Source: Anaerolineales bacterium
Lineage (GTDB): Bacteria > Chloroflexota > Anaerolineae > Anaerolineales > UBA11579
Length of the DNA: 64,000 bases
Reading direction: 5' to 3'
NCBI GenBank assembly: GCA_021463845.1
Contig: JAJTXV010000007.1
Coordinates: 1-64,000 of the forward strand
Shown: piece after piece, positions 32,485-36,207 of the stretch
How the letters are laid out: each line of letters begins with the position of its first letter
Position numbering within the stretch: position 1 is the stretch's first letter
The notes under the pieces: model-generated
Seen by the model: only the letters and a program-made list of their open reading frames with translations
What the model was told of the DNA's origin: nothing
Database searches by the model: none
Program-made: the position numbers and the translations under genes

Positions 32485-34209
32485 TTAGTCACTGAACGTG
32501 TATACCCACAGCCCGTCCTGTTCGGTGAGCGGGATCAAGCCCAGGCGCGCCAGTTCGTTTTGCACAGCTGCAAAGTCTGTATAGTCCAACGGGTCGATCA
32601 CTACGTATTCCACCTCGAACTCGCGCAGAGTGTTCACGCTGTGCTCGTCCGGGAAGCACTCGAGGATCGGCGCTAAATATTGGAACTGCGAGGTCTGATT
32701 GGCGTTGAAGAAGCCGCCGGTGAAGGGCTTCTGGTACGTCAATGTGTAGAAGACCTGCTCCTGGTCCACCGAGCGATGAAAGGGTAGCTGCACCACTGCC
32801 CCCTGGCCGGGCTGCTGGGCCAGCCAATGATCCACCGGGCGGGCTTCCACAGCTTTGATCTGGCCGTGATAGGTGCCGGGGTAGAAATCGAGCAGGGTCA
32901 GGGCGATCAGGCCGGCCGCGGCCCAGGTGCGCCACTGCGGCCGGATGCGACGCAGCAGCAGGTCTGCGCCCAGGCCGGCCGCAAACGCCGCGAACAACAG
33001 CGTGAACAAGCCCATGCGCATGATGGCGCGCATCTTGGCGAAGAACGGCAGGTAATTGTAGAGAAGCAGGCTGGGCAGCGGCACACGCTCGCCGTTGATC
33101 AGCACCAGCTCGCGGTCTATGTGCAAGTGCGGCCCCATGGCGATCACCATGGCGGCCAGCATCACCAGCGCAGCCGTGTACAGCAGCGGCTTGTTGGCTA
33201 ACTCCTTTTTCCATACAAAAGCCAGCGCCACCAATGCCAGCGTCACCGCGCCCACATACAGCGAGCCTTCGATCCACTGTGAGCGGTCAAAGATCTCGCT
33301 GATCCAGCCTCCCCACAGAAAGTGGTTCGAAGCCGGCGCCAGGAAGTCAGTCAGCTCGGCCGCATATTCGTTCATGTAATCCACGCTGCGGTCAGCCAGG
33401 CCCCCCTGGCCCGCCAGCGCCAGGAACGGGCGCAGCGCCATGTACAGCAGCGGCGCGCTCAGCGCCGCGGTAACCCCCACCCGCAGCCAGCTGGCCGGCT
33501 GCGTCAGCAGCCTGCGCACCTGGCTGCGCGGCTCGAAGACCGCGTACCCGATCACGAAGACCAGCGTGATCAGTAGCGTGAACAGCAGGTAGTACATGGA
33601 TGTGAACGCGATCAGGCCCAGTGAGCCAGCACACAGCAGCATCCATCCCCAGTGTGAGCGTTGGCGCAGCCAGTTGGGGGCTTGGGGGGTGCGCAATACT
33701 TCATACAGGCTCATGAAATACAGCGGAAACCAGGCCGTTGCGGATAAGTTCAAATGGCCAGCGTCGTAATGCGCGATCCGGTTGGGGAAGAAAGCGTAGA
33801 TGGTGCCCGCCAGCAGGCTGGCCGCCTGTGACTGCGTGTGGCGGTAGACCCAGGCGTACATCGCCAGGCCGGAGAACACAAAGCTCAGCCACATGCCCAC
33901 GTTGAAGCCCGCCACCGGACCCCACAGGATGCTGAATGGGATGCTGGGCGCCAGCGCGGCCAGGCTGGTGTCAGTCGTGGATAGGTTCCAGCCTTGTGGG
34001 TAGTTCATCATCGGATTGAAAAAGATGTGCGGGTTCTCGCCCAAAAAGAAACCCTGGTACCAGCGCACCAGCCAAACAAAATAGATGCCGTCGCCTTGCG
34101 TGCCGCCAACAATCGAATCGGTGAAATCAAGAACCAGTGGATAAGTGAATAGCAGGGCCAGCAGTAAGAAAAATGCCCCGGCCAGGGCAAAGTGCTTAAT
34201 TTTGGGCAT
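32485..34209 (-). CDS. Polytopic membrane protein, GT-C glycosyltransferase-like (YfhO/DUF6541-like architecture)
   Basis: The 574-residue protein has about twelve hydrophobic helices and a C-terminal ~120-residue soluble domain. The first loop (GGTQGDGIYFVWLVRWYQGF) has an Asp in the GT-C catalytic position, and FFPNRIAHYDAGHLNLSATAW follows in the next loop. The C-terminal part VVQLPFHRSVDQEQVFY resembles many bacterial membrane glycosyltransferases. A TATAAT on the minus strand (34225-34220) lies 10 nt before the ATG, flanked by two copies of TTGACCCA. Substrate unknown. Confidence 0.75.
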   Translation of the reverse strand: MPKIKHFALAGAFFLLLALLFTYPLVLDFTDSIVGGTQGDGIYFVWLVRWYQGFFLGENPHIFFNPMMNYPQGWNLSTTDTSLAALAPSIPFSILWGPVAGFNVGMWLSFVFSGLAMYAWVYRHTQSQAASLLAGTIYAFFPNRIAHYDAGHLNLSATAWFPLYFMSLYEVLRTPQAPNWLRQRSHWGWMLLCAGSLGLIAFTSMYYLLFTLLITLVFVIGYAVFEPRSQVRRLLTQPASWLRVGVTAALSAPLLYMALRPFLALAGQGGLADRSVDYMNEYAAELTDFLAPASNHFLWGGWISEIFDRSQWIEGSLYVGAVTLALVALAFVWKKELANKPLLYTAALVMLAAMVIAMGPHLHIDRELVLINGERVPLPSLLLYNYLPFFAKMRAIMRMGLFTLLFAAFAAGLGADLLLRRIRPQWRTWAAAGLIALTLLDFYPGTYHGQIKAVEARPVDHWLAQQPGQGAVVQLPFHRSVDQEQVFYTLTYQKPFTGGFFNANQTSQFQYLAPILECFPDEHSVNTLREFEVEYVVIDPLDYTDFAAVQNELARLGLIPLTEQDGLWVYTFSD

Positions 34210-34211
34210 GA

Positions 34212-34235
34212 TGGGTCAAATTATAGTTGGGTCAA
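34212..34235 (-). promoter_or_regulatory. -10 hexamer flanked by direct repeats
   Basis: On the minus strand TTGACCCA occurs at 34235-34228 and again at 34219-34212, flanking TATAAT (34225-34220). The copies are 16 bp apart and both are exact. They could be an operator for the GT-C gene pair. Confidence 0.45.
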
Positions 34236-34236
34236 C

Positions 34237-35517
34237 CTAAGAAGATTCTTGTATCAAGTAGTTTCTAAATATGTTAATAACTTCTATGCTTAGTTCTCTT
34301 TCAAGAGGCGGCAAATTTGCAGGAGGTAAATATTTTAGTACCTCTAAGTTTGAATTCGATGTCTTGGAGGCCTTCTCTTGATAAAGAAAATGAAGATAGG
34401 CTGTTACAAAGACTTGCTTGTGTCTTTCTGTCCAGCCAATAGGAAGTTTCGCCCAACGAGAAAAAATAATTCTTGAATCTTCATCAAGAGTATTGCTAAA
34501 TACAAAGCCGGTGGCCATGGTAGATGAAAATACGTCAGAATTCTTTGAATAAACAATGGTCGATTTGTTATCTTCGCCAACTTCGACATAGCCTGCAATA
34601 TCGCCCGACTTATTGTAGGTAAACAGCTTAGTTGGTGTCGAGAGATGGCCCTTTGGTGTTAGCTCTAATAACCCATCAGAAAGAAAGTAATACCCTGAAA
34701 ATCTGGTCGGGGTCGACATTTCCAAGTCGTTAATGCCATCTGCATTAACCAATCGTACGCTCACAAAATAGGGCACAGCATTCTGCGCATGAGCAAGGTC
34801 TCTGAAATTGCTGTGTTCTCGAGGTGTGAGCTGACCCTTGTTAGGGTGAAGTTTTGTTCTTACCCAAATGTAGGATTTTTTGTTGTGAACTTCGGCAATA
34901 AGCTGTGGCTTTGCGAGTATGCCTCTATTAACTTGTGTAATTCTGACACCCTCTTTTTCTAGCTGTTCAGAGACAAAATTTACTCCAAAGATGTGAACTT
35001 CGAGAGGATTGAGAAGATTGCTTGAAGAGATTTCCATTTTAGGTACGGGAAGTCCTTGAAGCTTATAAAAATCAACTTCACCTAGTTTGAAAGCTTTTGT
35101 GCTCAGGTCTTGATTTAACTTACGAATGTCAAACTTGTACTTCTTTGCTTGTGAGGGTGAGATGTCACCACGAGCAAATAATGTTTTTATTAATTCGCCT
35201 GCTAGGTCAGTAATTGGTTTTGATGCTGCTTGCAGATACGTGGGCGCATCTTCTAGTGGTAGCCTCCCTGCCGAGTGTTCAAACCCTAGGTAATATGACA
35301 TTAGTAATGATGGAGCCAATATCCTTCCTAAATCTTCTCCGAATTTTAGGGATTGGTGTAGGTTGAGAGGTTTGAGAATGGAATAGATTTCATGTAACTG
35401 TTCAACTATTTCCTTGGATGCCTCAAAAACATACCTCGAAGAATCGGGGTTGGTGCCATATTTCTCCCAGGACTTTGATATCCTTATTAATTCTGCTTGT
35501 AAATCCCCGGGCTCCAT
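34237..35517 (-). CDS. Orphan protein with degenerate PD-(D/E)XK nuclease-like region; AT-rich gene
   Basis: The 426-residue protein matches no family I recognise. Residues ~178-260 fit the PD-(D/E)XK pattern: helix FVSEQLEKEGVRI, then KPQLIAE where P-D is expected (Gln205 for Asp), SYIWVRT where E-x-K is expected (Trp218, Arg220), then a helix and a strand PYFVSVRLVNAD. Catalytic residues are therefore lost if the match is real. The N-terminal ~150 residues are helical; the C-terminal ~160 are mixed. Base composition is clearly AT-rich compared with neighbours on both sides, indicating transfer. It starts 9 nt after the rex stop with no Shine-Dalgarno. Confidence 0.8.
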   Translation of the reverse strand: MEPGDLQAELIRISKSWEKYGTNPDSSRYVFEASKEIVEQLHEIYSILKPLNLHQSLKFGEDLGRILAPSLLMSYYLGFEHSAGRLPLEDAPTYLQAASKPITDLAGELIKTLFARGDISPSQAKKYKFDIRKLNQDLSTKAFKLGEVDFYKLQGLPVPKMEISSSNLLNPLEVHIFGVNFVSEQLEKEGVRITQVNRGILAKPQLIAEVHNKKSYIWVRTKLHPNKGQLTPREHSNFRDLAHAQNAVPYFVSVRLVNADGINDLEMSTPTRFSGYYFLSDGLLELTPKGHLSTPTKLFTYNKSGDIAGYVEVGEDNKSTIVYSKNSDVFSSTMATGFVFSNTLDEDSRIIFSRWAKLPIGWTERHKQVFVTAYLHFLYQEKASKTSNSNLEVLKYLPPANLPPLERELSIEVINIFRNYLIQESS

Positions 35518-35526
35518 AAAACGTCA

Positions 35527-36144
35527 TTAGTCCAGATAGTACGTCATGCGCTGCAGATGGATTGAGGGGTCGATGTTCTGCACGCGCACCCCGGCCGGCA
35601 CGCTCAGGTTCACCGGGGCATAGCTCAAAATGGCGCGGATGCCCGCGTCCACCAGCAGATCGGCCACGTCCTGGGCTGCGCTGGCCGGCACGGCGATCAT
35701 GGCCATCTTGATCCCCGCGGCTTGCACTTCGCTCTTCAGCTGGGCCGTGTCTTTGATGGTGAATTCGCCATGTTGCTGGCCAATGCGCTCGGGCGCGTTG
35801 TCAAAAATGTCGCGGATCTTGAAGCCGCGCTCGCTAAAGCCGCTGTAGCCAGCCAGCGCCCGGCCAATGTCGCCCGAGCCCACGATCACAACTTCCCAGG
35901 TCTTGTTGACCTTCAGGATCTCGCGCACCTGGTTTGCCAGGTATTCGATGTTGTAGCCGGTGCCTTGCTTGCCGAACTCGCCGAATTGCGAGAGGTCCTT
36001 GCGGATCTGGGCGGCCGAGATGCCCAGGCGCTCGCCCAGCTCCTGCGAGCTGGTCACCTGGCGCCCCTCAGCCAGCATTTGTTGCAGCGCCCGCAGATAC
36101 ACCGGCAGGCGGCCGATCACAATGTCAGGGATCTGTTTTGCCAT
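35527..36144 (-). CDS. rex: Redox-sensing transcriptional repressor Rex
   Basis: The 205-residue protein has the Rex winged helix (TSSQELGERLGISAAQIRKDLSQFGEFGKQGTGY) and the NAD(H)-binding Rossmann domain (VVIVGSGDIGRALAGY). It ends with the domain-swapped helix typical of the dimer. Rex binds operators when NADH/NAD+ is low and releases when NADH rises, controlling respiration and fermentation genes. A good Rex-type operator lies 44-63 nt upstream of its start (36188-36207), so autoregulation is likely. The AT-rich orphan follows 9 nt after its stop. Confidence 0.96.
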   Translation of the reverse strand: MAKQIPDIVIGRLPVYLRALQQMLAEGRQVTSSQELGERLGISAAQIRKDLSQFGEFGKQGTGYNIEYLANQVREILKVNKTWEVVIVGSGDIGRALAGYSGFSERGFKIRDIFDNAPERIGQQHGEFTIKDTAQLKSEVQAAGIKMAMIAVPASAAQDVADLLVDAGIRAILSYAPVNLSVPAGVRVQNIDPSIHLQRMTYYLD

Positions 36145-36187: not shown

Positions 36188-36207
36188 ATTGTGCAATTGC
36201 CCACAAT
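36188..36207. promoter_or_regulatory. Probable Rex operator in the rex-obg divergent region
   Basis: The 18-bp core TTGTGCAATTGCCCACAA (36189-36206) matches the Rex consensus TTGTGAAnnnnTTCACAA at 11 of 14 fixed positions, and with one more base on each side gives 6-bp symmetrical arms. A second palindrome TTGTACAA follows at 36210-36217. Rex is encoded immediately to the left; obg starts at 36308 to the right. Confidence 0.7.

Follow-up and report, generated by a model that had tools for sequence, protein, structure and literature searches.

A single-gene insert behind a putative rex gene in an Anaerolineales genome encodes a predicted PD-(D/E)XK-type domain that lacks the catalytic acids

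Background

The UPF0102 proteins (YraN; PF02021) are a listed PD-(D/E)XK family (PMC1913061). Inactive nuclease folds are difficult to recognise from sequence, and new binding functions often arise in them. PDC-S02, a NucS-like entry in PADLOC, is a reported phage-defence candidate encoded by a single gene. The protein described here is linked to UPF0102 by the profile of its middle domain and to PDC-S02 by the site at which its gene lies. It has no match to the PF02021 model, and the kinship with UPF0102 is at the profile level only.

The AT-rich insert

The window is a stretch of 64,000 nucleotides from a draft Anaerolineales genome (2.33 Mb, 20 contigs, 96% complete). The gene at 34237-35517 (minus strand) has an ATG start, encodes 426 amino acids and is present in one copy in the genome. 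Its GC content is 0.40 and its GC3 is 0.36; the GC content of the window is 62%, and its other long open reading frames range from 0.56 to 0.71 in GC and from 0.48 to 0.87 in GC3. A scan of the whole window places all 500-bp stretches below 50% GC within 34001-35500. No other gene of the window has such low GC, which agrees with the claim of the first-pass annotation that foreign composition is unique to this gene. The protein has no match in Pfam, NCBIfam or PADLOC and none among PDB sequences (best E 1.1); the best E-value against PHROGs is 0.022.

Directly upstream, in the same direction, is a 205-aa open reading frame (35527-36144, minus strand) with orthologues in all eleven genomes of the genus. 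It is probably rex, judging from the first-pass name and a reading of its sequence; its surroundings in the window are housekeeping genes. The 426-aa gene starts 9 nt past the rex stop codon on the same strand, so it would be translated from the rex message and co-expressed with rex. A Rex-operator-like palindrome, TTGTGCAATTGCCCACAA, lies upstream of rex at 36189-36206; through it the 426-aa gene might possibly respond to NADH. The palindrome is kept in five congeners (L009-L013), the L009 and L013 copies carrying one or two changes, and this conservation suggests autoregulation of rex. A promoter scan found sites no more frequently than in shuffled sequences.

The gene is absent from all ten congeners and from 23 other genomes of the host family; among 229 genomes sampled from the host's class it is found in this genome only. 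Four congeners (L009, L010, L012 and L013) have rex, then a gap of 77-170 nt, then a membrane-protein gene. The gaps bear hairpins, some followed by a T run, which by eye look like terminators. The 426-aa gene stands where these congeners have the hairpin gap, and the membrane-protein gene downstream of it starts at 34209. Similarity to the congeners in blastn and alignments stops at about 34228 (left junction, 34229-34236) and restarts at about 35527 (right junction, 35518-35526). The gene was acquired horizontally, as a single-gene insert. Five further loci (L014-L018) have other genes behind rex.

No direct repeats of at least 12 nt were found around the insert, and a transposon origin was rejected on that ground. 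Carriage by a phage or plasmid was also rejected, as searches of phage and plasmid records and viral contigs found no relatives. Beside the left end of the insert is AATTATAGTT (34215-34230; TATAAT on the minus strand), conserved between the window and the aligned congeners. It stands immediately upstream of the membrane-protein gene and is perhaps the -10 element of that gene.

A second insert at the same site

In another congener (L011; a single 2.24-Mb contig), rex and the same membrane-protein gene are 1.2 kb apart. This space contains a 371-aa gene (L011:357-1472, minus strand) in the direction of rex; its DNA is 41-46% GC, against about 60% around it. The insertion point falls inside a hairpin that is intact in L012. 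The encoded protein is similar to the NucS/EndoMS nuclease domain (2vld, E 1.6e-6) and, in PADLOC, matches the single-gene defence candidate PDC-S02 (E 1.7e-47); its plasmid relatives are annotated 'endonuclease NucS domain-containing protein'. It has no similarity to the 426-aa protein, and common ancestry of the two inserts was rejected for this reason.

The order of rex and the membrane-protein gene is found in six genomes, two of which carry different AT-rich single genes between them. Since L011 has a different AT-rich gene there, the site behind rex appears to take up foreign single genes; the two inserts suggest a hotspot and do not prove one. The L011 insert takes weight from a link to rex and redox state and adds weight to a reading as cargo or defence. 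With its small natural set of single-gene inserts within one genus, the site is a simple place to seek new one-gene defence systems.

Relatives of the middle domain

No relative came up in plain searches of genomes from the family (24), the class (396) and the phylum (400), or of phages, plasmids, viral contigs and genome contigs. Weak matches (L002-L007, L020-L048) were judged from their alignments to be chance, and further weak matches were short, weak pieces. Residues 165-287 of the window protein were then combined with hand-made variants in a probe alignment to obtain degenerate patterns; no conclusion rests on the variants. Probes A2 and A3 gave no relatives in viral contigs. Among genome contigs, A3 found L057 (Thermophagus xiamenensis) and L058 (a Marinilabiliaceae MAG), which are 35-36% identical to the window fragment over about 112 aa by tblastn (E 5e-18 and 4e-16, relative to the candidate stretches). 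The family relationship has an E-value of 2e-20 by blastp.

A profile built from real sequences found members in 19 of 296 Bacteroidota genomes, together with YraN proteins in three genomes and one chance match. Further members occur in the order of genome G764, and eight copies are found in six of 95 genomes of another class. One genome, G930 (L098, L107), has three family members, two of them within 3 kb. A leave-one-out profile of the 25 Bacteroidota relatives, with the window protein excluded and E-values given for 20,000 sequences, matches the window protein at E 1.6e-17; none of 1,000 shuffles does better than E 6. Family members are homologous over about 115 residues; P204 and V219 are invariant among them, and position 205 is Q or S.

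The subgroups are named here by locus. Their profiles match the window protein at E 4.3e-19 (L057 type), 4.5e-6 (L061-L074 type) and 0.034 (a type of about 260 aa). The window domain also groups with the L057 type in the tree (support 91/83), on a long branch (2.23).

Predicted fold and flanking parts

AlphaFold2 run on the single sequence gives a pLDDT of 41. With an input alignment of 26 rows, from which YraN was excluded, pLDDT is about 95 over most of residues 171-280. The predicted structure has the a-b-b-b-a-b order of a restriction-endonuclease-like core: helix 171-188, strands 192-196, 206-210 and 213-223, helix 232-244 and strand 248-258, at pLDDT about 95. The first-pass annotation had proposed a PD-(D/E)XK domain at residues 178-260 and suggested structure prediction as a check; the model has the core, with slightly wider bounds of about 171-286 (residues 171-287 lie at 34657-35007, minus strand).

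VIA-align ranks the Holliday-junction resolvase Hjc first (Z 11.4) and a splicing-endonuclease subunit second (Z 10.1); further Hjc chains and SPARDA complexes come after them. Foldseek returns the same kinds of fold, with weak E-values for the long query. An early family profile also picked up UPF0102/YraN proteins, and hhalign matches the family to UPF0102/YraN with probability 90 and E 1.6e-6 over 61 columns that cover the catalytic region.

The flanking parts are without a match in Pfam, NCBIfam, PADLOC, PDB or PHROGs, as the first reading had it. The N-terminal part (residues 1-170; 35008-35517, minus strand) is predicted to form long helices within residues 3-153, with block pLDDT of 42-83. 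Fold matches of these helices reach Z 7.7, no more than chance gives for helical bundles, and were discarded. The C-terminal part (residues 288-426 and the stop codon; 34237-34656, minus strand) is poorly modelled, with block pLDDT of about 45-66.

Loss of the catalytic acids

Alignment to YraN places Q205 at the D of E-I-D and W218-V219-R220 at E-V-K. P204-Q205, in the P-D position, is encoded at 34903-34908 and W218-V219-R220, in the E-x-K position, at 34858-34866 (both minus strand). Across the 26 members, position 204 is always P; position 205 is Q in 21, S in five and acidic in none. Position 218 is hydrophobic and 219 is V in all 26; position 220 is R in 17, K in six and Q in three. The catalytic combination of an acidic PD residue and (D/E)-x-K is found in no member, and neither column is acidic in any of them.

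Because neither position is acidic in any of the 26, this is most likely an old non-catalytic family and not a decaying gene. The first-pass annotation had read P-D as changed to P-Q and E-x-K as changed to W-V-R; the residues are indeed missing, but the change is no decay within the window gene, as it is the same in 26/26. The first-pass annotation had named homologues that are never acidic here as a ground for refutation. The close family is indeed never acidic at these columns, but the more distant UPF0102/YraN proteins have E-I-D and E-V-K there. Acids at the same columns in UPF0102/YraN, and the predicted core, uphold the pseudo-nuclease reading. The domain is most likely, on modelled structure and alignment, an Hjc/YraN-type PD-(D/E)XK fold that lost its metal-binding acids before the family spread. 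The window domain should therefore not cut nucleic acid.

Gene neighbourhoods and alternative roles

Most stand-alone relatives lie among housekeeping or respiratory genes, and the relatives scanned against PADLOC have no match. In the L061-L074 subgroup, apbE is within 1.5 kb at 12 of the 14 loci and nqrF is immediately upstream at eight; the 14 loci are related and are not 14 independent events. Larger regions have nqr genes, the small pseudo-nuclease gene and apbE in line. A literature search found no description of the gene linked to apbE and nqrF. A pseudo-nuclease gene of about 120 aa adjoins apbE, and often nqrF, at L061-L074 and L091-L095 in Bacteroidota; neither Pfam nor NCBIfam has a model for it. 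The family, for which Pfam and NCBIfam have no model, recurs in Bacteroidota, and one of its subgroups is linked to a respiratory operon that is well studied; direct genetic tests are therefore within reach.

ApbE flavinylates NQR (PMC12174285). By analogy with these relatives, the family might assist or regulate NADH-linked respiration (Na+-NQR, flavin attachment by ApbE), and the window copy, behind rex with its Rex-operator-like site, might be a redox-linked derivative in the rex operon. This is unlikely. The linkage to apbE and nqrF is confined to the L061-L074 subgroup and the window gene is outside it; the L057 type, nearest by profile, and the type of about 260 aa are both outside nqr operons. 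The link of the window gene to rex may be only positional, since the L011 insert is an unrelated cargo gene behind rex.

The L057 type has a neighbourhood in common, including a thioredoxin-like gene. A small gene with a CCGAHEVC motif adjoins relatives of this type (L057:7035-7433, L058:7399-7827 and L086:839-1255, all minus strand); the one at L086 has no match in Pfam. The type of about 260 aa has a different N-terminal part, occurs in three copies in one genome and is once beside an McrB-like/DUF2357 pair (PADLOC PDC-M26). At L096:4383-10425, a relative of this type is near an McrB-like gene, a DUF2357/PD-(D/E)XK gene (a PDC-M26-like pair) and a GIY-YIG gene.

It is doubtful that the gene is a passenger, a recent insert without a role in the host. 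Its presence in one of eleven genus members and its unameliorated composition are what a passenger would show; the reading frame is nonetheless intact through all 426 codons, and the core of the domain continues to fit the family.

An active nuclease that cuts nucleic acid through other residues is very unlikely. A conserved polar set (H175, Q205 and R/K220) surrounds the old site, and in some PD-(D/E)XK families the active-site residues have migrated; against this, both acidic columns are lost in every member and the core has no other invariant acidic column. A misjoin of an AT-rich stretch into the contig is extremely improbable, draft assembly in 20 contigs notwithstanding, as it would require two joins exactly at gene borders and as the analogous insert of L011 is in a single 2.24-Mb contig.

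Proposed role of the insert

The favoured explanation, held tentatively and at somewhat less than an even chance, is that the gene is cargo at a rex-linked insertion site and encodes a sensor-like protein with an inactive Hjc/YraN-type binding module, plausibly for phage defence or genome conflict. A foreign single gene would have landed behind rex, at a site that receives other foreign single genes. Its middle domain (171-286), which had lost the metal-binding acids by the time the family spread, would no longer cut. Binding would fall to the former nucleic-acid face or to the former active-site pocket with its conserved P-Q and V-R, and the bound partner would be nucleic acid, another protein or an anionic ligand. 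The helical N-terminal part and the C-terminal part would act or make contacts. The product would be a sensor-like cargo protein, with a plausible part in phage defence or genome conflict.

Against this explanation stand the lack of a PADLOC match for the window gene and its relatives, the housekeeping or respiratory surroundings of most stand-alone relatives, the long branch and the poorly modelled flanks. The idea of a defence module, raised in the first reading, accordingly fares unevenly: PADLOC gives no match and the rex neighbourhood is housekeeping, while a congener has a defence-candidate nuclease gene at the same site.

A broader proposal is possible but rather improbable: an ancient, inactive Hjc/YraN-like family would have been put to new use as a sensor or adaptor, and the window protein, with such a pseudo-nuclease as its sensor, would by itself make up an undescribed defence system of one gene. 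The domain stands alone beside nqrF and apbE in Bacteroidota and is fused to another domain in the type of about 260 aa; in the window form it would have gained two new flanking parts as single-gene cargo, at a site whose other cargo includes defence-candidate nucleases.

Comparison with known systems

The stand-alone proteins of about 120-130 aa (L057, L058, L061-L074, L086-L089) are homologous to residues 171-286 and share the P-Q and V-R/K/Q signature. They consist of the domain alone, whereas the domain of the window protein is preceded by about 170 aa and followed by about 140 aa.

UPF0102/YraN proteins share the profile-profile match over the catalytic region. They hold G-E, E-I-D and E-V-K; the window family is without both acids.

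Archaeal Hjc (PDB 1gef) is the best fold match, with 105 residues superposed at 3.2 A. Identity is 17%, and in contrast to Hjc the window protein lacks the catalytic acids and has extra N- and C-terminal parts. Subunits of the tRNA-splicing endonuclease (PDB 2zyz) match over 85 residues at 2.1 A; their chemistry is different, and the comparison is by fold and not by sequence.

PDC-S02 has a member at the same intergenic site in L011, which like the window gene is AT-rich, single and in the direction of rex. The two proteins differ in that they are unrelated in sequence and in that the I-D...I-E-L-K motif of the L011 protein looks intact.
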